Below, in pieces: positions 9,001 through 64,000 of a stretch of DNA of 64,000 bases (positions within the stretch are counted from its first letter, which is position 1; every line of letters begins with the position of its first letter). Below the pieces are notes generated by a model. It saw only the letters and a program-made list of their open reading frames with translations, was not told the origin of the DNA and did not search any database. The stretch is from Dysidea avara. Its lineage: Eukaryota; Porifera; Demospongiae; Dictyoceratida; Dysideidae. The translations under genes and the position numbers were made by a program. The stretch is from positions 24,141,133 to 24,205,132 of the forward strand of contig NC_089274.1 in assembly GCF_963678975.1 (NCBI RefSeq). Direction: 5' to 3'.

Positions 9001-12000
9001 ATCGTAAATGAGATTTGTCATCATGCCTGCCACCCAAACTACATGTAATTATCAAAAACTAGTTGCACAAAGTTTCTTCAACATTATGGAAATCAGATTG
9101 AAGAATGCATTGTACATACCACAGTACATACAATGCATTCTTCATGGACTTACCAGTGTCATCTTTTGTGTCCCATTCATCCTTGCTGACAGCAAAAGGT
9201 GTCGATTTGGCGGTAGCACGTGATGGCTTCCCTTTGTAATGGAAATTGTCTGTATTTTTCATACTGGCTACTTTGATTGCAGAGGTATTTTTTGAACAAT
9301 TCTTGATTTGTAATGTTGTGTGATGGGTTGATATAGCTGATAATGGAGTGTAATGGATGCTTTTTTCAAAATTTTGCTCATGTGAGTGCAGAAGGTGGAT
9401 GGATGCATACACACACGTTTTTAGGGTACCAGCTACACACCTACTGCCAGTCTGTGGCCAGTGTGGGTGAATTCCTGGTTTTAGAAATGTAGCCTTTAAA
9501 AATTGAAAAATACCTAATATCAAAGGTAGCGCTGGGTCAACAAATATTTGTAAGACCCTCCTACAAATATTATGTAAGTATTGACTGTTTAATTAGAGTA
9601 GTTTGTAAGTGCATGTTCTGTGGTATGTTAAGTTATTGTCAGTTACAGTGATTTTGTTGTAATAGAATTACTATATGGAGTGGTCACCAATCCTACTGTT
9701 GCTGGAGCCATTGGTCTGCCCTACCCCCCCAGTATAGTCATGTACTCCAGGACACATGGTATATACCAGTATTTTGGAACTGGTGATATATCAGCCATAC
9801 TCAATTGGACCTCCACTAACAGTCAGTATAGAATTGTGAACAAGTTACAATGGAATGGAGTGTTAAATGCACCCAGTGCTGTTCTATTTGTACCCATAAA
9901 TGATACTAAACTATCCGTACCAATTTTAAAAGATTACAGATTGGCTGCTGCAAGATATTCTTTACTAATGTATTCATCAAGTTTGCCATGTCATAATTTA
10001 AGGCACTTTGAACACTCAACTTGTACATCACAAATACCTCAATGTGTGGTACAATATGAGGACTATTGTTCACGTTATTGTACAGCAGTTCCTGATGGAA
10101 AACTGTACAGTGTTTTGAACAGTCAGTCATCTATACATGACTCAGTATTAGTGGCTCCTAACTCCTGTATGTACAAGTGTTACCCACTGGAGTTGTCATT
10201 CCATTATGCTGACACGTATATGTTCTTCACAACACTGAAGAAATTGGGACTACAGGTCACCAATAAACCCTCACTAGTAGTGGTAGATCCCAAGGTGATG
10301 CTTCATTGTACACATATGTGGTGCTTTGAAGATGTTGTTTGTATTGTTAGAGTGAACTGGAGTTTGTCATGGACTCTTCTACAAAGTTTGACTCTGATAG
10401 TATCTGTTAGTGCTCAGTACAGTTTATTTGTGTTATTATCTTGTGTTTGTTGTTTTGTAGTTCAATTTCTTCACAACATCTCAAAAGGATTGGTAGCACC
10501 TTTCTACAGAACAGTCACGCCTCCTAATAATCCAGTTGTACTGATTAACTCACTATTCAATATTAGTGTAATGGAATTGGTTGGGTCAACCTTCACTAGT
10601 GTAGTGATGGATCCTAATAAGGTTGTGTGGCATAGTATTTTTGTTAACATGAATCGATAACATGTTGTACCATTGACTTCCAAAAGCAGAACCCTTTTCA
10701 CCTGTATCGTATGTGTATTGTGTAATGTATGTGTCTGCATGTGTACGTGTACTATATGTGCGTGGATGTCAAGATCATTTGATGTGTCACATCTTGTCCC
10801 TCTTTACAGGACGTAGTAGTGGCCCACTATAGTGACTGGTGTGGTCATTGTTTGAGTTTCTGGCCACTTTACTACTCACTGGTTTATTCCTACCATACTG
10901 TGAATGATCTACTGTTCACCAGGTCCTTACTACCCACTAGCTGTGTACTGTGTGTTGTAGTTGTTCTATCAGGATAGACAATGATAGGAATGATCTTCTA
11001 CCTTGTCATCAAGTGATCGAATTTCCTAGTATTGTGTTGTACCTCAGAAACAGGTAACTAACTGATTTGTTGTATTAGTGGTCGTGGTTTATCATGTTGC
11101 AAATTTAATGTGAATTGCATGTAGTTAGAGCCTACCACGAGGATCTTTGTGATTTTAAAAACCCAAAGCAAAGCTGAGGGTTTTTAAAGCCATGATGATC
11201 TGAGTTGGCAATCTCTATCTGACTTAGAAAATCCTTCACAAAAAAATTTCACTGTTACTAAAAGTTACATCTGTAAGTTGGATGGCTTAGTTGTACTATT
11301 TAAATGGCAAACGACTTGCCTGATAGTTGTGCTGGGTATTCAGAGCACTGATTGGTACTCGCAAATGCGAAGAATAGTGCACCCGTTTAGACGGTTAATC
11401 CGGTTTTGGGTTCCTAGTTGCGAGTGTTGCTTGGTCACCACACTTGACTTGCTGACTCTTGAAAGGTTGTCTATACCTGCAGATACACTAATATGGACAT
11501 TAATACTTCAGTCTATACTTTATGACTGATGAATTAGGGATTAAATGTTCACTAGTGTATCTGTAGGTGTAGACGACCTCCCTTGTTTCCCTACTTTTTA
11601 TGGCTATGATTCCTAATCAGACTGAAAATCTGTAAATTTAGCTTCTACTTGTTTGTTTACTTTTTAAATAACATACTTATGACTAATGACCCCAGGCATA
11701 CTGCATCAAAAGGAAAAATGACACCAGGCATGCCATTTAATTTTGTATCTGAACGCACACCCCAACTATTAATATTACTGAAAAGCAAAAAGTTCCATCG
11801 TTTTCAGCTATGTTTAGCCCGTTTCAGTGTTACAAATGAAAAACACTACACGAGGGACCTCTGCAATCAATCCAGTCACAATGGAAAACTTGGGTGATTC
11901 CCATTACGTAGGGAAGCCATCACGCTGCACTACTGCCTTTTGCTCTCAGCAAAAGTACATGGGACACAAAGGAAGACACAGGTATGTCCATGAAGCATGC

Positions 12001-16846: not shown

Positions 16847-19800
16847 ATGGCTGAAAGCGATTCAGTAAAAACTTCCAAGGAAGATGTGTTCAAAGAATTT
16901 TATATTAAACTTCTAAAAATATTGCCGACGAGTAAATTAGCGTCCCAGTTGTATTCTCACAAGTTACTGTCTAGCGATCACAAGACTAAAATCGATGGAT
17001 TGAGCCAGGATAGTGACAAAGCGGCGTATTTCCTTGACAAAGTGATCAAGCCTGGTCTAGAGGTCGGCTACAATGAATTGTTTGATGAAACGTTGAGACT
17101 AATGGAGACCAGTGATGATTCTGTTGTTGTGTTTGTGGCAGAAGACATCAAGCGGTGTACAATCGGTGGGGCATCACGTGAAACTCAACCAACAGGTATG
17201 TAAAGACATCGACACCTTTGAAAATCAGAGACGTGCAACTAAACACTTTCGCGGATTAGCCCACGCTGCCCACCTGACTTATGAAAGCCATCTTGAAACT
17301 CTGGATCTCTATTCTCTATATTGCATACGCCAAAGGGGTGATATGATTGAAACATATAATTATAAGACACTTAAACGATATTATGACTTGGACCCATCTA
17401 CATTTTTTACGTTAAACCAGGGGCCATTCTCTTAAGCTTTTTGAAGCAAGATCAAGATTACTTGATAGGCAGAACTTTTTAACAAATAGAATAGTCAATC
17501 TATGGAACTCCTTACCTGACTTTATCATTTCAGCACCAACAGTTGCAACCTTCAAGCTGCGCTTTGGATAATTTTTGGAAGCAATCTAGATACGGGCACC
17601 TTCAAAGGCCTGCGGCCCAGCCTGGCAATTTAGCATTGCCTGGGCATCTACAAGCCCATTAAATAATAATGTAGTATACTCCGGTAAGGCCACTCCAAAT
17701 AAATTTTCTGTTTCCCGTCCTGGACTCAAGCATATTTACATGCGGGTGGGCGGTCCATTTCCATTATTTCATTATAAGATTGGCAGCTTTTCAAGCCAGT
17801 ATTTGCCTGGTACAACCATAAAAAGCTGCACAAAAGCATGCTTAGGCTTGTTCCTTCCTTTTTAAATTGCAAAAATAACACAAACGTGAAGTTTGTGCTG
17901 ACTTGATAGCACTGCTGACACGTGAGCTTTATTGAGCCTGCCAGTATGCAAGAATAACCGGGAAATAATAGAAGAATACGGAATAATGGAATATTTAGAG
18001 CTGACAGTAACCAGATGCGGGCGGTGAACGGGAAACAGAGAATTTATTTGGAGTGGCCTAATATAAAGCTGAAGGGTAATGGTAAAACCAGGAACGGATA
18101 AATGGGAAACGAGAAATAGAGAAATGGGTGGAAATGGAATTCCTTTGCTACAGAACATTTGTAATTGAAGGGGTAGCAGACCACAGATTTTCTCACGACT
18201 TTGGTGGCCGAAGTAGCGGTGACTGCTGTATTAGAGTGTTTTGCAACTCAATTGCTAAAAAAATCATAAGATAAGCATACAACTGTACTAACAGAATGGC
18301 AATTGTATAATATCTTGGTACAATATCAAATCTATCAATTAGATAAATTTCAGAGGAGTGCAGCTTATTTCATTATGAATGACTTTTCTCGATTTAGTAG
18401 TGTAACCAGCATGCTGGACCACCTAACCTGGCACAAAGAAGAAAATGTCTTAAGCTACTTATGCTTTTTGAATTGATTTATGGTCTTATTGAAGTCTCAT
18501 CAATTACTCCCTCATGTACTTGCGGTCACTCTCGTCGTCATGCTATCAGTCCATCAATTAGAACTGAAACATATTTACATTCTTTCTTGCCTTTTAATAG
18601 CAGTAAAATTATGGAATAATCTACCTCAATCACTAATGTTGTTGATGATTTTATGCAAGAGCTTGAACTCTACCTATATCCCTCGCACCCCCCTGTATGA
18701 TTATCTGTGTGTGTAAGAGGTTTTACACAGTAATTATAATAATAGTCAAATATCTGATGGTGGATAATGCATATTACCCTGGTGGTATCCTCGGTGGTAT
18801 CAGTAGCTTAAGTTGAAGTGACTGCTGTATCACAGTATTACAAGTTTAACGTCATGATGAGCTTCTGAGAATTTTAATACAGTGGTATACATGCCAGCCT
18901 GGGTCCTTAATGTCATAATAGTGGTAGTGCATTTGCTAGCTGACTATAATTAGAGCAGTCACTTTAGCTTGAGCCACTGATACTGCCAGGATGATCTGCA
19001 TTAAATCCACCATCAGAAATTTTACCCCAAGACATTATACAATTGCCATTCTGTTAGTGCAGTAACTACAGTTATATGCTTATGATTTTTTAGCAATTGA
19101 GTTGTAAAACACTTTAATACAGCAGTCACTGCTACTTTGGCCACCAAAGTCATGAGAAAACCTGTGGTCTGCTACCCCTTCAATTACAAATGAAGAGTGT
19201 TCTGCAGCAAAGGAATTCCATTTCCACCCATTTCTCGTTTCCCATTTCCTATTTCTCCGTTCCTGGTTTTACCACTACCCAAAGCTGAAGCCATCTGACC
19301 ATCTACAAAATGGAATGGTTAAAGCTTCATATACAAGCCATCATACAGTACAATTAGTCTCATCTCCCAGACCCTTCCCCAAGCTCACTTAATTTGGAGT
19401 GTCTATGTCCACCAGTATACTGGTGGATGTAAGAGCTACGTATCAGCTATTGACACCAATGTGGTATTCCCCGAGTATTCGACTTTAGGGCACGCGTCTA
19501 GTGCCCTGAACATTCGACTTTAGGGGACACGTCTAGTAGTTTCCCAAAGCATTCAACTTTAGGGGATGCGAAAAGTAGGGTTAGGGTCAGGGTCGGGTTC
19601 AGCTTTGGTTCCTTCTTCTCAAGCTTCTTCTTTAATAATATAGTACACCAGTTGCATTTATAATGTAGAAAACCAGAGGAGGTTGGTCATGCTTCATCAT
19701 CCTATGACGCGAAATTATGCAACCAAGCATTGTTCTATGTGTTAAGGCTTGTTTAGCAGCTAGGAAAGCAGTGCATTGTACTGAGAAGGCTTGTAATATA

Positions 19801-22800
19801 ACTGGGATGCTCCGGTCTGGATATACAATCCGTCCTTTAGAATATTAAGAGGTGGGAAGGTTGAATTAGTTCAACCCTTCCTTTGAGATCACGAGATGAA
19901 TGATGACGCATGACCAACCTCCTCTGGTAGAAAACAAAAGGAGTTTGTAGCTGGCAAGCAGTGGCTCAGTGGTAGGCCTCAGGACTCAAGAGTGTGGAGG
20001 GTCTGGGGGTCAGGGATCTCAGATTTTTTTTTCTCTTCGTTTTATAGTACCTTTTTGTCTAAGTTCTTTTTTTTTTTGGTTCACCGGTGGTAATAGCAAT
20101 GGCCTTTTAGATTATAAGTGCACTTTCCGATGCACGCTTATAATCTAAAATCGATAAGCGCGCTTGAGCAAGAGTCTGGGGGACGAGACAACAGTACGAT
20201 ACGGATAGTAGTACTGTATAGTAGGGACCACAATGGTGTAGGAGTGCCCATGAAAAAACACCCAAAAACCAACCTCAATTTTCCCTGACAATGATGAGGC
20301 AGTATTGGTTAAGTACAACCATAGGTATTATACGTAACATGGATTGGAAACACGCATATAAATGCATGTTAATAAATGTATCCTATCCTCGTTACGGTGC
20401 GCGAAATAAATTAGGTTATTACAGCTGAAGTATTTCGCTCTCTTGTAAGCTACTAAGTGGTGTTTGTCATTTACAGTGGGGAAAATTACCACCCACATTA
20501 ACTTGAGGCTAGCCTGATTAGACATATTGGCTCTTGGTGAACAGTAGGGTGGCAAAATTCTCATTGTTAAATCGAATTATGGTGTTACGGAACAGTTTTG
20601 TAATTTTCCTGAAGAAACTAAATGTTCAGCACCGCTTCTATTCTGTTACTTGCACCACTTATAACAGGTACAATGTAAATAGACTACTCAGATGTAGTTG
20701 TATTACTGTATAGCTCTACCGCTTCAATAAAACAAAGCCAAAACAGGTGCTACATTTTGTAAGTATTTTACCCTAACAGAGTAAGACTTCAGTTAAAGCT
20801 TTACTGTAATGTACCAAGTATTTAATAGGCAATTCAATTACGGCCATCACTAGTTGGTTAATAGCAGCGCTGCTGAGATATAAGCTGATGCTCACCTGCC
20901 ACTATCCACCTGTCGCCAATGGTATTTCCTCCGATATCAGCAAACACACCCGTGTTCTTGTTCAGTACACAATATAACACACCAACAATATAAAGGTAAC
21001 GTCTACACTACTACATAACCAAGAGAAAAGGCCTGTGAACAGGCTGTCAACATCTTTAAAACTAGTGCACCGTAACGAGGATAGACGAAATTATTTATGC
21101 GTATTTCCAATCCATGTTATGTATAATACCTATGGTAAAACTAAGCCCAAACCACAAGGGAGTGACACACAGGCACTCACTGTAGGTAGATCTGCGACCA
21201 CGGTCTACGTCAAAGGTCAAGGCCACCAAAATCGTGCCAAGTCAGTGGTCAAGGATAAAAGTTTCCAACCCACAATCGAAAAGTACTTAAATATTGTCGC
21301 TAAGTCACCGGTCAAAGATCGAAAAAGGCTCTTAGTCATAGGTCAAAGCGAAATTTCTGCCGGTCAAGACTTTGACCACAGTTGCAGATCTACCTACAGC
21401 GCGTACCTACGTGACACCCACTGAAACCATAGATTATCAAGAGAGGGGATAGAAAACTAATATTTACGGGTGCACTCCTCACCTACAGTTCCATTTACAC
21501 CTTTTTAAAACTCTCTTATAAACGTTTGTAGAGAAAAGTTGTTTTCTTCGAGGTGTACAGTAGCACAAGGCGACTTAGTAACTCAAAGCAGAGCCACCTA
21601 ATCATTGTTATTGAGGAGTATGCCTTACCACAAATTCACACTTCAAAGGGCATGAATCGTTTTGAAGTTGAACATGGTTTGTCGCTTTCAGTCCCGCCTT
21701 AGTCCCGCCTCCAGTAAGATGGGAATCACAAACATGACTAGTGTAGGCTTTTGTCCGTCTTTCATCAGTCTACCATTAGACGTCAATAATACAATTACTT
21801 TATATCCAGTACTGTTGTCGACTATGTAGTTCACCAAATTGCAGTACATGTTTGACTCTCAACCACTCAAATTTTGTAATGTCATTACATGATGCTGGGA
21901 ATTACACTAATTGATGGAGGGATCTTGGTAAATGCAATTTTTGATATAGTAATTGTTGGAAAGTATTACAAGATGTTCCAAAAAAGATAGAAAGTGTGTA
22001 TTTTTAGTCTTATTAATTACAGGCATGCCCTGGTGGGCGCCGCCATTACCAGGCTCGCTGCCCAGGCATCAGCAGTAATTGCACAGGCTCAGGCATAGCT
22101 AAGCCCCTGGAACCTATCGTGAAGTTTATCAAGCATATGCGCTTAAATAAGTTTGCAGCATCTAAATATGCTGCTCAGGAAAGTGTTTATAGGAAAAATT
22201 AACACCTCAATATGGTTTCATTGCATGAAGAAGGACGAAGACCAGCCTGATTAAAGATTAAAAAAAGACAAGGTGTAGAGGGCACGCACTAGTTTGAACC
22301 CAAAAGGCACATGCCACTGGTGAGGTTGGCTGGCTGGCAGGCAGACGAAAATTTGAGATCAGTGATTTTATAAAAAAAATTCTATATCTGGCAGTTTTCT
22401 TGTTTTTAATGCTGTATTTGATGTTAGATGTACTAGCATTATTCCATAAAGGTGATTTTCGTCACATACTGTAAGATGTCTCTAGGATGATTTTTAAAGG
22501 TGGCATTTTAGGCAGCATTTGTTTTGAGGGGATCCCTACTTAAACAGTACTACCGCACTGTTTGATAACACCATCACCCTTAAGCCTGATTAAATTTTTG
22601 TGCATATACATCAGGAATTGTTAATTTGTGCTAAATGTACAGCATTTAGACATCAGTATGCAGTAATTATTGACTGCAGTATGTTATGTTACAACACATG
22701 TATTGTCACAGCACTACTACCATCACTTGAAGTTGACCTCTACAAACCAAAACCAGTTGCTAAATTTTCTAAGAGTTTGAACATTGATTCAGCTTTTACC

Positions 22801-24423
22801 AGAATGACATCAGAAATAGAAAGTATTTTAGAGTTGAAGAAGTTCTCTAAACTACGTAGGGCTTGTATCCAAAGGATTAATATCTTAGGAAGCAGCTTGC
22901 CTAAAAGTTTAGTACCTAAGATTCAACAGACACATTCATTGGATGATATGTTGGATGTGCTTGCTCAGTCTCCATATTGGAACTGGTTTGACACAAGACT
23001 TCTACAGGCTCTTATTAGTGCATCAGGATCAGCTGAGGCTGAAGAATGGTTGGAAAGTTTTAAAGTGACTTTTTATGCTCAAAAGATCACCCAATTCATT
23101 CCTTATGTAAACATTAAACCATTTAAAGGATCTATAAATCTGTTTGAAAAGTTTGACAAAGATCCTAAAGATTTGACTATTTCAGAATTACTACAACACA
23201 AGTACAAGTTAGAGTATGAAGTGTTGGATATAGATGAAGGAGAATTAGTATTAAGTTGTATTAAAACAGGTTGTGTTGAACTGACATGGCAGATACCACA
23301 AGAACTGGTTTACCGAGCATATACTTCAATGAAGAGGAAACATGATGAGTTGTCATCATTAGCAGTCAAGTCTCTGATCTGTGAGGAAGCAGATGAATAT
23401 GCAGGTCTTCCTATTTTGTGGCGTGGACAAGAGGTAGGGGAGGTTGGTCCTATTGAGCCATTACCAGAACATGTTAGACAAGAACCATACTCTTTACCAC
23501 AAGGATTTCAGTGGGTCACACTGAGTAGTATTGATGCTCAAAAAGTAGTAAAATTTATTCATAACTTAATACCTGGCCAGCTCATGGCTTCTACTAGATT
23601 TCATCATATCACCACACACCCCTATGCCAAAAGTGAATGGCAATTTAGCGTCAGAACAACTAATGGTAAAGTAGTAGGTGTAGTATTGGCTTATCCTGTT
23701 TGTATGAACATTGGAGGAGTATCAGTAATGTGTGTTCGTCCTGCAACATTCTTCCATAAAAAATACCATAACAAGCGACTGTCTTACATTTTATTCAAAG
23801 AATGCCAAAGAAGAGCCAATTTAAGCAACATTAATCAATTTTTGTTTGGAAGCAATAATGGTGTATACAAACCCTTAGCTACTGTCATAGTATGGTATTA
23901 TCACTTCACCCATCCCACAAGTTATCAACTCCCCAGTTCCCCCAGAACACCTGGTTGGAGGAAAATGACATCAGAAGATGTTCCTAGTGCATTAGCTCTT
24001 GTCAACAAGTATTCATCACAGTTTGAGATCAGACAAGTCTTTACTAGTGAAGAAGAATTTTCTCATTATTTTCTGTCTCCAACTGTACCAAATTTTGTGT
24101 TTACTTATGTAGTGGAAAATGAGGCTAATAGCATAACTGGCATAGCCAGACATATTCTAATACAGTTTGAAGATGGTAGCAGATTACCTGTGATCACTAC
24201 AATAGCATCTACTGATTTTACAGTTAAACAATTACTAATAGATATTATGGTATTTGCAAGAAACAATAGCTCTGATAAATTGGCAGCAAGGTTGTCTAAT
24301 GTTGACGGTGACGTTTTATCTTCACTTTCATTTCAGCAGCATCTTTCTGGTGATACTTTTTGCCTTTACAACTACAAGTATCATGAAATAAACATGTCCA
24401 ACTTTTGGTGTACAACACTTTGA
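16847..24423 (+). CDS. CARD / sponge-type domain / N-myristoyltransferase-like fusion protein (two-exon model)
   Basis: Exon 1 (16847-17195) starts at ATG and encodes a CARD/death-fold helical bundle: FKEFYIKLLKILPTSKLASQ, LYSHKLLSSDHKTKIDGLS, YFLDKVIKPGLE. It ends in phase 1 at CAACAG|GTATGT. A phase-1 acceptor (ATTGTCACAG) opens exon 2 at 22712, which is open to the TGA at 24421-24423. Exon 2: about 200 aa of a domain I recognise only from sponge-type proteins (SPYWNWFDTRLLQALISAS, LSCIKTGCVELTWQIP, YTSMKRKHDELSSLAVKSL), then a glycylpeptide N-tetradecanoyltransferase-like domain (GPIEPLPEHVRQEPYSLPQG, NKRLSYILFKECQRRANL, YKPLATVIVWYYHFTHP, DVPSALALVNKYSSQF). NMT normally attaches myristate to N-terminal glycine. 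Alternative: exon 2 opens at the phase-0 acceptor before 22615, and the CARD exon is a separate broken gene. The intron holds LINE fragments and MITEs. Joining is inference; each part is clear. Confidence 0.65.
17196..17665 (+). mobile_element. 5'-truncated LINE (reverse transcriptase C-terminus and 3' UTR)
   Basis: In frame: KDIDTFENQRRATKHFRGLA, LETLDLYSLYCIRQRGDMIE, then after a frame slip ARSRLLDRQNFLTNRIVNLW and NSLPDFIISAPTVATFKLRFG, the standard tail of CR1/L2-type non-LTR reverse transcriptases. It is followed by a 3' end with GCCTGGGCATCTACAAGCCC and a short AATAATAAT-like tail. The 5' break abuts the CARD exon within a few bases. Confidence 0.8.
18046..18316 (+). repeat. Left arm of a large inverted repeat
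   Basis: About 250 bp (GGTAAAACCAGGAACGGATA ... ACAGAATGGCAATTGTATAA) matching in reverse complement the arm at 19020-19280. The arms surround a LINE fragment and a second, inner inverted repeat. Confidence 0.75.
18340..18712 (+). mobile_element. LINE reverse-transcriptase fragment, degraded
   Basis: Frames with several slips read FQRSAAYFIMNDFSRFSSVT, MLDHLTWHKEENVLSYLCF and KLWNNLPQSL, the C-terminal RT/post-RT region of a non-LTR element. It lies within the inverted-repeat structure 18046-19280 in the CARD-NMT intron. Confidence 0.7.
18745..19020. repeat. Inner inverted repeat
   Basis: ATCTGATGGTGGATAATGCA ... AAGTGACTGCTGTATCA (18755-18835) pairs with AGAGCAGTCACTTTAGCTTG ... AATCCACCATCAGAAATTTT (18950-19022). 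With the outer arms it makes a nested foldback. Confidence 0.65.
19020..19280 (-). repeat. Right arm of the large inverted repeat
   Basis: Reverse complement of 18046-18316 with scattered changes and a few indels (for example ACTCTTCATTTG where the left arm has ATTTG). Confidence 0.75.
19475..19570 (+). repeat. Three short tandem units ending CGACTTTAGGG
   Basis: ATTCGACTTTAGGG, ATTCGACTTTAGGGGA and ATTCAACTTTAGGGGA spaced about 40 bp apart, followed by GGGTTAGGGTCAGGGTCGGG. Non-coding; origin unknown. Confidence 0.5.
19950..20045 (+). repeat. tRNA-derived SINE-like head
   Basis: GCAGTGGCTCAGTGGTAGGC resembles a tRNA A box, then CAAGAGTGTGGAGGGTCTGG and GGGTCAGGGATCTCAGA in the place of a B box, then poly-T. 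Diverged; not a functional tRNA (no cloverleaf that I can close). Confidence 0.4.
20100..20165. repeat. Hairpin, TTTAGATTATAAG arms
   Basis: TTTAGATTATAAGTGCAC pairs with TGCACGCTTATAATCTAAA around a seven-base loop. Likely the end of a MITE. Confidence 0.6.
20195..20330 (-). repeat. REP-A copy 4 (3' end only)
   Basis: The minus strand reads AATACTGCCTCATCATTGTC, AGGGAAAATTGAGGTTGGTT, GGTCCCTACTATACAGTACT, the terminal 130 bp of the REP-A family. Confidence 0.65.
21155..21423. mobile_element. 269-bp MITE with CAAGGG..GTGACAC TIRs
   Basis: Left CAAGGGAGTGACACAC ... GTAGGTAGATCTGCGACCAC; right reverse complement CAGTGGGTGTCACGTAGGTA ... GTAGGTAGATCTGCAACTGT. Flanked by AAACCA at 21149-21154 and 21424-21429. 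Interior carries repeated GGTCAA words. Same family as 41210-41605 and 49029-49505. Confidence 0.75.
22190..22572 (+). repeat. REP-B copy 1
   Basis: AACACCTCAATATGGTTTCA, CCAAAAGGCACATGCCACTG, GGCAGGCAGACGAAAATTTG and a final GGGGATCCCTACTT. The second copy is at 56440-56790. It ends just before the NMT-like exon. Confidence 0.6.
22615..24423 (+). CDS. NMT-like exon (stand-alone reading)
   Basis: One long exon, open from the acceptor ATACATCAG at 22614. Residues after GPIEP align with human NMT: RQEPYSLPQGFQWVTL, then CVRPATFFHKKYHNKRL for CVHKKLRSKR, then FTYVVENEANSITG and FCLYNYKYHEI for the C-terminal strand. The upstream acyl-CoA motif, YxFWxTQPV in true NMTs, reads LPILWRGQEVGEV here; the FLCV oxyanion segment reads VMCV; and the loop between the HP and the GWRKM segments is about 25 residues shorter than in human NMT. 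The protein ends NFWCTTL rather than LVLQ. It may be a pseudoenzyme or have altered substrate choice (inference). Confidence 0.75.
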   Translation, partial: ELLICAKCTAFRHQYAVIIDCSMLCYNTCIVTALLPSLEVDLYKPKPVAKFSKSLNIDSAFTRMTSEIESILELKKFSKLRRACIQRINILGSSLPKSLVPKIQQTHSLDDMLDVLAQSPYWNWFDTRLLQALISASGSAEAEEWLESFKVTFYAQKITQFIPYVNIKPFKGSINLFEKFDKDPKDLTISELLQHKYKLEYEVLDIDEGELVLSCIKTGCVELTWQIPQELVYRAYTSMKRKHDELSSLAVKSLICEEADEYAGLPILWRGQEVGEVGPIEPLPEHVRQEPYSLPQGFQWVTLSSIDAQKVVKFIHNLIPGQLMASTRFHHITTHPYAKSEWQFSVRTTNGKVVGVVLAYPVCMNIGGVSVMCVRPATFFHKKYHNKRLSYILFKECQRRANLSNINQFLFGSNNGVYKPLATVIVWYYHFTHPTSYQLPSSPRTPGWRKMTSEDVPSALALVNKYSSQFEIRQVFTSEEEFSHYFLSPTVPNFVFTYVVENEANSITGIARHILIQFEDGSRLPVITTIASTDFTVKQLLIDIMVFARNNSSDKLAARLSNVDGDVLSSLSFQQHLSGDTFCLYNYKYHEINMSNFWCTTL

Positions 24424-25440
24424 CATGTACCTACCGTATAGCATGTTCATGCATATGTGTGCACTATGCATTAATTTGAGGTATTATATAATAAATAGTT
24501 TGTGGAATTTTTGCAAGTATAATATACGTATCTGGCATATACCTCTTCTGATATGTTTATTGTATAAGTATGTTCAGAAAATTGTTAAATGGTAAATTTA
24601 CTAAATTATATAGTTACTTCTACACATCACTTACCTTTATCATAGATACTCTACCCACCCGATGGTAGAGTATCTATGCCTTTATACAACCAACTAGTAA
24701 ATTATACTATTAGCAATAGTTAGAACTAGGGCTCTCCTATATACCTATATTTAGTCATACCAAGCTAACAAAGCCACAATACTATATACCGAAGCCCAAC
24801 ACCAAACTGTGATACCGAAAATTAATATCGAATATATTGTAGTGGTTAATAGTGAAATACAATGAATTAGATGTTGTGACATCACAATAAACTGTGTATT
24901 TACAGAATGGGTAGCTGAGTGCAAATGCATGTTTCAATTTTGCCATGCCAATTTCTAAATACCATTCCTATTCTTGTTGTACGGTATCCATTCAAGGACA
25001 ATACCAAGGTATTATTTTAAAATTTTGGCAATACTGCAGAGCCCTGCCCTATATAGTTAGAACTAAATTATTTTCCATCTTTAAAGCTTATTATACCTAG
25101 TTTTCCATTGTAAAATCATTGTTTTGCCTTGAAATTTTTCTGCTTGTGCCTGAATTTTAGGACCTATAAATTTTAGGTCCAAGTAGAAAAAAATTCTGGA
25201 CAAAACATTATAATGTTGTAGGTATCCAGTGTAAACAAACATGCATATGGTTGCAAAAATCTTAGTATTTAGCTATGGTAAAAGCTCACTGATATTTTGT
25301 CTATGTGTTAAATCCAACAAATTCCTTATTCTATGATCATGTCAATACTGCAAGTACAGTAGTAGTGTTGAAAGCTTCATGATGAGTGCACAAGAGATAA
25401 AAGGCTATGAGGGGTGTAATTTTGCAGCAAAGTATATTGC
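24424..25440. other. Intergenic, AT-rich, no gene seen
   Basis: Between the NMT-like stop and the next repeat. It contains a hairpin at about 24643-24677 (ATAGATACTCTACC / GGTAGAGTATCTAT). No exon supported. Confidence 0.6.
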
Positions 25441-47805: not shown

Positions 47806-48457
47806 ACACATGAATAATGATGGACCGGACCAAGTTAATGATATTTTTATCAAAAGTAATTTTATTATTTTGTATTTTTTTTCATTAGAAAAATTACTTG
47901 CTGTTGTAAGGTATATAGTCTACTGAAGCACTGACACTGCCCTTGTTAACTTTTTGTGGAAGAGGTATTGTGTGGTGCCATCTTACAAGTTAAAAGAGGC
48001 AGTACACTACCAGGGTGGCCATAGCAGTCTACTGCAAGGCAATATGCAGCACTTGTGAGCTACTTGCAGTGAAAACTTGAAATGCTGACTTACACGTTTG
48101 TGGGACTGTCTTCCTGAGATTTTGATTGTAACGTGGACATTAGGAACTTTTTGTTTTGTTTTAGTCTATATTATACAAATAAACAATACAGTCTTAGTGC
48201 TCAAACTGTGGACAGATAAGCGAACTCTGCCCAATCCTGTATCGATGGAATCGTTTCCATTACAGATCAGCATTGCCACTTCGAACATCTGGAACTTGTA
48301 AGCGGAAATATTAAAGTCACGATGTGTGACACGGAAGTTTCGCCACCGTAGTAATCTTCAATCAATAAGCCCCTGCGCGAAAAGCGGTCTGGCCAAGCGA
48401 GAGTAGTAAATCTAATCGACTTTTCTTCGCTGCAACCCTACTGCGAACAGCTAGTTG

Positions 48458-51372
48458 ATGTTGAATCCAAGAAGGAATCTTATTTGGTGTTTCTATAGCA
48501 TGTTGCTAGTCATCATCTGTATCGTGTTTGGCTGTTATAGAGTTCTGACGACCCACCATTTACGAATTCCAGTCAATCACTGGAAGTTGATCAATATAAA
48601 ATCTCAGGCAAGACATGATTTGCTGAGCATCATCGAACTACCTAGTGATATTACACCAGCACCTAGTGAGATTACGCTAATGGATCAACCACAGCAGCCT
48701 TCCACCTCGCCTAACCTGATGAACAGGACTCACATCTGGGGACTCCCAATGGAACCAGTGAATATTGTGTATCCCGGAAACATCTACTTCTCAGTCAAGA
48801 CTACCCATTACTATTACAGCGAAAGGTTGCTTGATTTGTTGTTAACTTGGTGTCAGGCTGTGGACAAAGACAAGGTGAATTTGTGTCTGTTGTGCATAAA
48901 TGACATACATCTGTTTAGATGCCTGCTATATGCCTACATAAATAGGTTCCACTGGACCATTTCTGAACCTCCATATTTTAGTTCGGTGTTGCCTGTCTGG
49001 GTCCTGTACACCAGATCATCATCCTATACAAGGGGATGTCATGTCGGCTCACGCTGTAGGTAGATCTGCGACCGCGGTCAAAGTCTTGACCGGAGAAAAT
49101 TTCACCTTGACCCTTGACTTGCAGTGTTTATCATCTTTGGCCTGTGATTTGAGCGTTTCTTGTCGAACTTTTGACCTACACTTATTTTCCTATACGCACC
49201 TGTGCTTGTAACCTAGTATAATATTTTCTTAGTGCGTGCTACCAGCAGCTGGGAGAGAAAAATCATTATAATTACGGCGAAATGCCTGTTGGAGCTTTAA
49301 AACATCTTCTTAGAGATCCTTACTTCTTGTGAATTACGTATAATCCTGTAAACTTGATAATAGCTACGTATAGTTTTCGATTGTGGGTTTCAAACCTTCC
49401 ATCTTGACCCACTGTAAGAGCTATTTAGTGGCCTTGACCGTTGACTTAGAGTTTGACTGCGGTCGCAGATCTACCTACAGCAAGAGCCTGAGTGACACCC
49501 CCTTGCTATATATCAGTTATTGTGTTAGCAACTTAGAGCACGCCATTGTTTTTGAGTAATGCCATTCTGAATATGACATCTCACTTTTGGGACTTGTATG
49601 GCTGCACAACCTGGAATAGCTATGTGTTTATAAATATATAAGTATCAACTTGTTTTGTAGCTCACTTGCTATAGCTAGTTGCATTTCTCCAGATACTAAT
49701 GTAGGACTACAGAAAGTTTGTATTGTAACTAGTATATTTTAAAATTATTAATTTAATAATGAAGTAGGGATCCAAGCAATAAAATGTAGTGAAACAAGAA
49801 GTGAATGACGATATTACAGCATAGCTCGGTGGGAAAATCCCTACCATGATATAACAATCATTTTGTTCAATGCCAAAGTAGCACTGAACTATGCTGTAAT
49901 ACCATCATTAATCCATTTCTTGTTTCACTACTTTTATCGCTTGAATCCCTACTTCACTTTTACATTAATATACTAGTTTGTTACATTAATATACTAGTTT
50001 GTTTGGTGTATAGCATACAGCTATACAAATGTGACTGTTCTATTAAGATGACTGTTGTATTAGAGTATTTCAAGTCAGCTTTCGAATTCACTTACCTCAC
50101 TATTTTATATTTTTATTACACTAGAATTATGAATGCATCTTGACGTATAATAAGGGGGTGTGGTCATCGTAATTGAGTAAATGGATTATTAGGAGGTATG
50201 GTTCCTGCACTCGATTGTTATTAATCAACCAAGATCATTAATGGCCGTTGATTTGAAGCTATCATGAAGTTACAGGTATCTACCGAGTATAAGTACTTGC
50301 ATGTTTTTGTGCTGCCTAAATAATAACGTATTACAACAAAATTTGGAGATTTATCACCAAACTGCCAAATTTAAAATTCGTAGATATTATTTTCGTACCT
50401 TGTGTCCTAGCAGTTGTTGAGGTAGGTTCCAGCAAACCAAGTGTGGCTTTGTTAAACACGCCTTACTGGTAAATTAGCATGGTTCCATGTTCCACGCATG
50501 CAAATGGGTGTGGCTTATGACAGAAGCTGCCTGCTGTCAGGCTAGACTAGAACTCATACTCAATTAGTGGGCGTGGCTGTATGTAAGCTTGCAGACAGCA
50601 ACAGACATGGATTCATGCACAGCCATTGATAAATGGGCGAGGCTTTATGTATTTCTACAGACAAGTGGGCATGGCCCACGAAAGAAACTGGATTGTAGCA
50701 AGAATCAGATATTCTATAAAGTATAAAGTGGGTCAGACCCTGCAGTGTTCATTTACCATGTAAAGTGGAACCCCCTTTGAGAAATCCTGGCTACGTAGTA
50801 CCTATGGGCTTTATACACAATTCACAAGTACAAGTTATTTGGGGAACTTATGTACAGGCGCCTATAGAGAAATTATCTTGATCAATCATGTTTCACTCGT
50901 GAAGCAAGATACCAACCAATAGCCAACTAGTATTAATAAAAACCATTTTTGTAAATGAGGATTATTTCAAAAAAATCATCCAACATGCAATACAATTGTT
51001 TATTGTATTGCCTTGTAACCATACCTGTTGCTTAGAGCTCAATATCACCTTCCCTAACTGAAATATATGATAGATCAAAACAATTTCTCCATAGGTGCCT
51101 GTACATTAGTCCCCCAAAATAATGCAGCCATCTTGTGCTCGTGACGTCATTGTGGATAAAGTTCATATATAAATTTTAAATATCATTACATGAGCTCTAT
51201 CCAAAAGTAGAAGTTATTAAGGGACAAAATATTAAGTGATGTAGCAAGCATAACATGTGCTATTTGTTGTGAGAAGGTACATTTTACTGTTCTAGTTATC
51301 AATTGTCAGTGATAAGTCACCTTCAGAAGATCAAGCATATGTTTATGTACTGAGAAAAGCAGGTGTGTTATG

Positions 51373-62240: not shown

Positions 62241-62424
62241 TCCCAAAATTCTTGCTTGCTGTAAAGTCCAACCTGTATTTTTTGTTGGTAGTCCCCGTTC
62301 CCACTTTCCGCTCCCGTCCCGCTCCCGTTTTTCTAGAATTCTAGGCTACTCATCCCGTACGGGTCTATGCCTACGTATACGATTTTCGCCCACCTGATTA
62401 AGAACAGAGGAGATCAACAAGATC

Positions 62425-62925
62425 ATGTTTACAAACTGTTTACGAGTGACATGGTTAAATGTCGTTCTCTTCGTTTGCTTAGCCAGTATAATGTTGATAG
62501 TTCTTTATAACAGGAATTTAACGGGCAGATCGTATCTAGTTTTAGTTCATGAAGAGTTTACATCGAAGAGCTCGAGGTTGGGCAGCAATGATCGTGAGCC
62601 AAGGTCGCATCTAAGCCCGTCATCCGGTTCACCGTTGAGTGCTTCAACCAGCCCCACTTCGCCTTCAACGGTATCTGATTCACCGTCGAGCGCTTCAACT
62701 AGCTCCACTTTGCAGTCGACCGCTCAGTCAAGACCTTCAATCAATCCGCCTTCTCAACACTTATCTGATCTGAGCGAGACTCACGTATGGGGAGTACCAA
62801 TGGAGGCAGTTCATGCCAACTACACTAGAAATATCTACTTCTCCGTAAAATCTACTTATCGATATTACAGTAAGAGGCTACTTGATCTCATGTTAACCTG
62901 GTTTCAGGTGGTGGACAAACACAAG
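62425..62925 (+). CDS. Fringe-like glycosyltransferase copy 2, first exon only
   Basis: ATG at 62425; signal anchor (WLNVVLFVCLASIMLIVLY); a Ser/Pro/Thr-rich stem with SPSSASTS-type repeats; then ETHVWGVPMEAVHANYTRNI and YFSVKSTYRYYSKRLLDLML, matching copy 1 (RTHIWGLPMEPVNIVYPGNI, YFSVKTTHYYYSERLLDLLL). Donor GTAACA after DKHK, at the same phase-0 position as copy 1. The remaining exons lie beyond the window end. Same strand, about 5 kb after copy 1: a tandem duplicate. The stem is diverged while the catalytic start is conserved. Confidence 0.85.
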
Positions 62926-64000
62926 GTAACATGTAGCAAATAAGATACAGCTTTCCTGACCAACTAGAGTCATGTAAAGAGGGTTAGCTGTCTGTTGTAG
63001 TTTGGGGTGTGGTCAGTGTTACAGAAACCTCTATTGTGTAGCTACAGGTGTAGTGTTAATCATGCACTAATTAATTATTTAATTAACACATGATTTGGGT
63101 CTTTCTTGTTACGCCAAATTTTACCGGGCTGTATAAGTAGTGCAACATTTACAATTTTGTAACATGCAACACCACAACAAATACTGGGTGCCAAGTAACA
63201 GTTCATACCATGTAATACACTATAGTAGTCTTCCCTAGCCACCCCTTCACATTACAGAGGAAGGTGCTACTATAGTGGTAAAGAACTTGGTCAAATCACA
63301 ATATCCAGTTTAAATAAGTATTTGTGACATAAACCGTGTAGTTAGGGTCTGCAATCTGAAAAATCAACACATACAAATTGATCCCCTACCATTTGTAGGA
63401 TTTTCATTGTAGTATCCCATTGCTAGATCCACCATGAAACCGGAAACACGATTGTCGTCTTCACAGAAATATCGATTTTAGTATCTCGTGAGATACGAAA
63501 TTTATTTTTAAAATTTTGTACTCCACAGAAAGGACCAGATAAAACTTGTTGCTACTTTTTGCTAGATATTATCTAGAGTCATTAAAGTACGTACAGTAAT
63601 AAGCAAATGATTCACTGGGCTCCCGGCACAAGGTTGTTTTCTTTTATTATTATTATTATTAGCACAGTCACTTTACAGTGACCAGGAGGAAATGAAACAA
63701 ATTTTTGAATTCAAATTGCCCTATATACCAGCCAAGTCAAGAAAAGCCAACTCTTCCTCATGGTGATGTGATAAGGTTGGATGCATAGTCTGTCTATGCT
63801 GTTAGTCTGGAAAGGATCTGAGACTTCTCACCATCTGGGTGAAAAGTTTCAAAATTTTTGTACGTCAATCCACGGGATTCTCTCAATGGTGCCAAAGTCC
63901 TTCCAGTACTTCTGCTGCCACACTGGTCACCTAATTTTGTTTAGAATGATGAAAAAATGATGGTCCAAAACAATTGGTAGTAGTGGCAGTTGGTGTTTCT
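62926..64000. other. Intron of Fringe-like copy 2, no further exon seen
   Basis: No match to exon 2 text of copy 1 was found up to the end of the window. Contains a short TTATTATTATTATTAG run at about 63645, possibly a retroposon tail. Confidence 0.5.

Follow-up and report, generated by a model that had tools for sequence, protein, structure and literature searches.

A CARD-like exon joined to an N-myristoyltransferase-like domain with altered catalytic positions in an expanded gene family of the sponge Dysidea avara

Results

Structure of the gene

The window analysed here is a stretch of 64,000 nucleotides from the sponge Dysidea avara (NC_089274.1, positions 24,141,133 to 24,205,132), and coordinates given without a contig prefix refer to it. 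On its forward strand we found a gene model with two exons, the features of which are as follows.

16847..17195, + strand: exon 1, CARD-like; 116 codons plus one base, ending in phase 1, with an ATG start and an open frame
17196..22711, + strand: intron 1; 5,516 nt, GT...AG, phase 1, with many inverted repeats and copies of repeats
22712..24423, + strand: exon 2; 569 codons plus the stop codon TGA in a single open frame, containing from 5' to 3' a helical segment, a TRADD-N-like domain and an N-myristoyltransferase (NMT)-like domain
22771..23097, + strand: helical segment, possibly DED-like; residues 20-128 of exon 2, proposed from position and pattern only
23122..23391, + strand: TRADD-N-like domain; residues 137-226 of exon 2, with the turn motif TGC
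23401..24420, + strand: NMT-like domain, both lobes; residues 230-569 of exon 2, Pfam NMT and NMT_C
24490..24495, + strand: candidate polyadenylation signal AATAAA, 67 nt past the stop codon

When the two exons are spliced together in phase 1, a stop-free frame of 686 amino acids is obtained, and the exon ends (17195 and 22712) and phase given in the initial annotation are correct. The ATG at 16847 stands in a good start context (CTTAAGGAG[ATG]G), and the donor at 17195 (CAG/GTATGT) agrees with 8 of the 9 consensus bases. There are 88 donors with at least 8/9 consensus bases in 128 kb (both strands), and at this density 0.24 are expected per 349 bases and 0.0055 within the final 8 bases of the CARD frame. 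Exon 2 begins at 22712 after an acceptor ending in ...TTGTCACAG and is closed by the TGA at 24421-24423. The codon usage of exon 1 is equalled or exceeded by a fraction of 0.33 of the 118 stop-free windows with which it was compared, so that this comparison is uninformative.

If the CARD frame is left unspliced, it reaches a stop codon at 17201-17203 (...QPTGM), so that a CARD-only gene is a real rival to the fusion on the window data alone. Under this alternative, a CARD-only gene that stops at 17203 would be followed by a separate gene that starts from an ATG at 22681 or 22804. The frame of exon 2 is indeed open upstream as far as 22594, and potential polyadenylation signals are found downstream of exon 1 (ATTAAA at 17658 and AATAAA at 17698). 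The evidence that decides against two neighbouring genes comes from the paralogues described below.

Intron 1 contains the inverted repeats 18074-18318/19027-19280 (87%) and 20318-20400/21067-21136, among others, and the sequence past 17.2 kb is presumably like the 3' end of a non-LTR element. Further copies of the intron repeats occur in the window at approximately 14.2, 26.2, 41.2, 49 and 56.4 kb. Neither exon has a Pfam match to NACHT or LRR. NCBIfam and PADLOC returned nothing useful, and no related sequences were confirmed in the viral and genome contig sets.

Paralogues join the CARD-like exon to exon 2

We searched the 550.8-Mb assembly of the same genome (108 contigs) with exon 2 and obtained at least 77 matches. 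The top 21 rows have 53-100% identity, 19 more rows are near full length with 28-36% identity, and 29 rows are confined to residues 3-229. Among the 37 rows that span approximately residues 22-559 of exon 2, 34 have no internal stop codon.

The CARD exon was likewise compared with the genome, and the positions of 150 scored CARD-exon matches were set against those of all 48 NMT_C matches. Each of the 12 best genome-wide CARD-exon matches (of the 150 scored) is followed by an NMT domain on its own strand. Of the 150, 14 (ranks 1-12, 15 and 122) have a same-strand NMT_C match in the 25 kb downstream of them; the same test on the opposite strand gave 0, and the random expectation is 0.16. For ranks 1-12, the gap between the CARD match and the start of the exon-2 match, measured with 32 of the 150 CARD rows taken in, is 22 nt at its shortest and 15.8 kb at its longest. 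Two more loci, L019 and L025, were added by a profile built from the CARD exons. When we looked upstream of 20 of the first 21 exon-2 rows, a CARD was found for 15 of the 21 and not found in the roughly 8 kb upstream for 5 of them. For the distant members L027 and L028, too, the upstream sequence yielded no CARD; L037 and L039 were examined with little upstream sequence.

Five paralogues (L011, L014, L015, L016 and L020), chosen because they have a clear CARD exon and a donor within the sequence at hand, were spliced in phase 1 in the same manner as the window copy. All five give stop-free frames, 670-693 amino acids long when counted from the start of the CARD match, with introns of 2.5-6.6 kb. 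Another paralogue, L024 (on contig C11), is intact and intronless: its CARD and exon 2 lie in one 670-amino-acid frame that runs from ATG to stop, and its alignment with the spliced paralogues carries through their exon junction. A second compact copy, L038, is interrupted by stop codons. In L022, the frame of the CARD exon (C3:23899499-23899687) soon meets a stop codon and the profile match is divided between two overlapping frames, for which reasons L022 was omitted from the splice test; its CARD may be broken.

Given the intronless L024, the same-strand order of CARD and exon 2 at other loci and the phase-1 splicing of the paralogues, we regard the joining of CARD and exon 2 as established in the family and very likely in the window copy. 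The same observations, including the phase-1 donors and acceptors of the paralogues, rule out two separate genes for the family and make two neighbouring genes in the window extremely improbable. The earlier proposal of a single gene for the CARD and the NMT-like part is borne out by the paralogues. Other genes with the same domain order are present in this genome, and the two parts are not always separate in paralogues, as L024 joins both in one frame.

The CARD-like exon

The Pfam CARD model (PF00619) matches exon 1 with 15.5 bits and an E value of 0.018, which is under the gathering score of 23.9, and the trimmed core of the exon with 16.4 bits and an E value of 0.0094. Control scans with the reversed exon and six shuffled versions of it (n = 7, of 10 prepared sequences) produced no CARD match, but one of them matched an unrelated family (E 0.069); taken by itself, the CARD match of the window is therefore weak. 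At E values up to 1, however, 9 of 10 aligned genomic copies (window copy included) match Pfam CARD, the best with an E value of 9.3e-4. These matches, together with the position of the copies before NMT exons, rule out a chance match. PDB sequence searches with the CARD exon returned no entry named CARD, and we designate the domain CARD-like.

The middle of exon 2

For comparisons within the family we used an alignment of 21 paralogues (A1), from which L012, L025 and L038 were excluded on account of stops or split frames and outside of which many family loci lie. Alignment A2 was made without L022 (a near copy of L021) and L037 (which has a long insert), and alignment A4 without duplicates, L022 and L038.

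The TRADD-N domain of human NCOA6 aligns to 23122-23391 with a p value of 0.025 when the whole of exon 2 is considered and 0.001 when the segment is fixed beforehand; the identity of the query sequence was confirmed by Pfam. A conserved motif of TRADD-N domains, reported in PMC8195603, is a tiny residue followed by Ser or Cys at the turn between strands beta2 and beta3. Such a pair, judged by eye, is found at the turn in 20 of the 21 members (TGC, TSC or xGS), and one member has DS. An hhalign comparison of 19 of the 21 members with TRADD-N gave a P value of 0.0011 with a probability of just 20%, and control profiles gave 0.52 and 0.17. Neither PF13820 nor PF20694 is matched by the window segment or by any of the 21 members, a PDB profile search with the segment returned no match, and human TRADD did not align to exon 2 (p 0.54). 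PF20694 has 0 matches over this genome and likewise 0 in 14 control genomes, so its zero count here is uninformative. On balance, we consider it probable that the segment is a TRADD-N-like domain.

The helical segment at 22771-23097 has no Pfam DED or Death match at E values up to 10 and no credible PDB profile match. A Chou-Fasman profile was too weak to decide on DED or TRADD-N. The segment is perhaps DED-like or Death-like, which is a guess from its position. What had been described as a sponge-type domain is better described as this helical, perhaps Death-like, segment followed by a TRADD-N-like domain.

The NMT-like domain has lost most of the catalytic residues

Pfam matches both parts of the NMT fold in exon 2 (NMT, E 2.7e-14; NMT_C, E 6.3e-21), and the best PDB match of the NMT-like part is human NMT2 (E 9.8e-26). 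The two are identical at 85 of the 231 aligned positions, and the alignment opens 33 gap columns on the sponge side. At E values up to 1, PF01233 is matched by 20 and PF02799 by all 21 of the aligned members. Like NMT1 and NMT2 (PF01233/PF02799), the fusion proteins have both lobes as well as the QEPYxLPxGFxW and C-terminal YNY regions. They differ in that the NMT part is C-terminal to a signalling unit and lies within one exon, in that the Ab-loop and the stretch before YRLP are shortened (gaps relative to human NMT2), and in the replacement of Tyr180, Asn246, Phe247, Leu248 and Thr282.

The pocket of human NMT1 is reported to comprise Tyr180, Tyr192, Asn246, Thr282, Leu495 and the carboxylate of Gln496, and its oxyanion hole is formed by the backbone amides of Phe247-Leu248 (PMC7048800). 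In the window copy, the residues at the positions of Tyr180, Tyr192, Asn246 and Thr282 are Leu, His, Pro and Gly, the alignment near Tyr180 being gapped and less sure, and those at 247-248 are Ala-Thr. Among the 21 aligned members, Tyr180 is kept in 1 (with one gap), Tyr192 in 7, Asn246 in 0, Phe247 in 1, Leu248 in 1 and Thr282 in 2, and the position of Asn246 is mostly fixed as Pro. The replacement of Phe247 and Leu248 is the weaker evidence, since both act through backbone amides. These six catalytic positions are more variable than the NMT domain at large: their mean entropy is 2.29 versus 1.33 bits in 17 close members (permutation p 0.0094) and 2.63 versus 1.60 bits in all 21 (p 0.0048).

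Other parts of the domain are retained. Lys257 is kept in 15/21 members and Arg258 in 19/21, in a loop that we take to be CoA-binding. The tail after the YNY motif is 13-16 residues long in the 21 members, and 9 residues extend beyond the end of the NMT alignment both in the window copy and in Leishmania NMT, as if the catalytic carboxylate could still matter. The blocks VRQEPYSLPQGFQW and SPRTPGWRKMTSEDVPSALALVNKYSSQFEI are strongly conserved among the close members; the low synonymous divergence there points to gene conversion as a partial cause of this conservation.

An NMT exon separate from the fused family is found at C3:760735-760908 (...LYTAG), and in it Asn246, Phe247, Leu248 and Thr282 are intact. 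Its presence in the same genome indicates that the catalytic loss belongs to the fused family. Further NMT pieces lie on C3 at 772-776 kb. The locus C1:63389115 was considered as a housekeeping NMT and rejected, as it is another fused, distant member. From these comparisons we conclude that the C-terminal domain is an NMT homologue over both lobes in which the key catalytic positions are mostly replaced.

Since most of the residues of NMT chemistry are lost, acyltransferase activity is unsupported, and with it the earlier suggestion that death signalling is tied here to active myristoylation. A different possibility is that the domain is an active but altered acyltransferase, a divergent GNAT-type enzyme with a new acyl-CoA or peptide specificity that CARD assembly would bring to its substrates; we regard this as unlikely. 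The match to the NMT fold in both lobes, the C-terminal carboxylate near its usual place and the retention of Arg258 and Lys257 would all suit such an enzyme, and the Pfam GNAT model is touched by 4 of the 21 members (best E 0.0075). It has to contend, however, with the shortened Ab-loop and pre-YRLP segment and with the presence of Tyr180, Asn246, Phe247, Leu248 and Thr282 in at most 2 of the 21 members each. As reported for human NMT1, the Tyr180Ala variant retains 0.9% of kcat/Km and the enzyme without its last two residues retains 2.3% (PMC7048800). An enzyme that lacks only Asn246 could nevertheless be active, since the Tyr180Phe/Asn246Ala double variant is reported in the same source to keep 89% of its efficiency. 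Glycines or lysines exposed by caspase cleavage might be substrates of such an enzyme, a suggestion that we hold to be equally doubtful.

Family size, genomic layout and selection

The fusion family is expanded in this genome, partly in tandem. Scoring of 150 of 202 candidates gave 142 matches, which place the N-terminal unit at at least 137 merged loci; of these, 42 have NMT_C within 2.5 kb downstream and 95 do not. Conversely, 43 of the 48 NMT_C matches are preceded by the N-terminal unit; the 5 that are not are the pieces C3:773913 and C3:775533 and three matches on C9. Between 23.77 and 24.50 Mb on C3 there are 12 clustered NMT_C matches (11 loci and a fragment), 11 of them on the minus strand, and the window copy is the sole plus-strand member of this cluster. 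In a distant member, L039 (C9:21644100-21646950), the helical/TRADD-N-like/NMT-like unit is preceded in frame by a stretch of SQGPxQS-like repeats of approximately 300 residues.

In the 12 closest pairs dN/dS is 0.34-0.58, and on these comparisons the fused proteins are under coding constraint. Calculated by segment from 80 of 136 pairs among 17 close members (dS below 1), dN/dS is nowhere greater than 1, with values of 0.5-0.65 in the variable segments, sliding windows of at most 0.76 and two segments undefined. Synonymous divergence is likewise raised in the variable segments. With dN/dS below 1 and this higher synonymous divergence, directional diversification of the pocket is not demonstrated, and neither the segment nor the sliding-window analysis found positive selection on it. 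In the 17 close members of A1, synonymous divergence is low in some blocks (pS 0.15-0.30) and reaches 0.5-0.75 in the blocks between them, a pattern that might come from gene conversion making parts of the family more alike.

These data also bear on the idea that the NMT-like domain is a structural passenger, a degenerate scaffold or oligomer surface attached to a CARD/TRADD-N unit that would do the work. The absence of NMT_C from 95 of the at least 137 N-terminal-unit loci would agree with this, as would the free variation of many pocket positions and the fact that some copies are broken by stops. The absence of internal stops in 34 of the 37 near-full-span rows, a dN/dS below 1 in every NMT segment computed (two undefined) and the high conservation of the two sequence blocks in close members, to which gene conversion probably contributed, argue against it, and we judge a mere passenger to be quite improbable.

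Discussion

The gene layout is most likely CARD-like, helical (perhaps DED-like), TRADD-N-like and NMT-like, in that order. We favour, with about an even chance, the reading that its product is a CARD-signalling adaptor or sensor in which the NMT-like cleft binds a ligand rather than modifying it. In such a protein, the ability to myristoylate proteins would have been lost while the cleft was kept and came to vary between paralogues. Candidate ligands are N-terminal or acylated peptides, acyl-CoA and microbial factors directed against NMT or against myristoylated proteins. Its binding, or the loss of it, would leave the N-terminal CARD free to assemble, and the assembled CARD would then bring in a death-fold partner that acts downstream, while the TRADD-N-like domain might offer a second contact surface. 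Ligand binding, CARD polymerisation and an immune role are thus properties that we infer for the fusion proteins.

A more specific version of the adaptor or sensor reading, which we offer tentatively and consider possible rather than likely, is that these proteins are germline-diversified intracellular immune receptors of sponges, with the dead NMT fold as a variable recognition pocket and CARD/TRADD-N as the output. The pocket could receive microbial N-terminal peptides, acylated proteins or acyl-CoA, or it could act as a decoy for factors that target myristoylation.

The initial annotation regarded the combination of domains as an unfamiliar design. In Amphimedon, 357 proteins of the NCOA6 TRADD-N clade are reported, and the majority of the TRADD-N architectures there consist of one to three Death-like domains, TRADD-N and a variable C-terminus (PMC8195603). 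Since this class has been published, the design of the fusion is not wholly unfamiliar. The D. avara proteins resemble those of Amphimedon in having a Death-fold N-terminal unit, a TRADD-N-like domain and a variable C-terminal domain, and also in their large, lineage-specific sponge expansion (357 proteins versus at least 137 N-terminal-unit loci), but differ in that the C-terminus is NMT-like. The C-termini named for Amphimedon are ankyrin, SH3-LRR, kinase, MATH, SH2, PDZ, caspase, PNPase and HD, and the main text of that report, its Figure 4 drawing and source data aside, contains no mention of myristoyl, NMT or acyltransferase (PMC8195603). The occurrence of a shared N-terminal unit with and without NMT_C fits the published theme of changing C-termini. 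A literature search of titles and abstract openings likewise found no description of a CARD or TRADD-N joined to NMT.

The fusion proteins may also be compared with the sponge CARD adaptors and NLRC receptors, as described in PMC12909245. They are alike in having an N-terminal CARD-like domain and in belonging to an expanded family, whereas the fusion proteins lack a NACHT or LRR match and carry the NMT-like C-terminus. In D. avara itself, an NMT-annotated transcript is reported to be lower 5 h after contact with symbionts than after contact with seawater microbes (PMC11229196).

The analysis adds an NMT-like pseudo-enzyme, which exists in tens of copies and whose cleft varies between them, to the C-terminal repertoire of the sponge Death-like/TRADD-N expansion. 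Plant NLRs carry integrated decoys. Should the pocket indeed sense ligands, animal innate immunity would have in it a new fold for recognition, parallel to those decoys.

Three other features of the window may be mentioned. Two exons, at 48455-49060 and 62398-62940, have weak Fringe-like matches (E 0.0033 and 0.0023, below the cut-off), and perhaps represent a local glycosyltransferase family. An open frame at 9632-10657 has a weak match to Thioredoxin_6 (E 8.4e-4), which is also below the cut-off.
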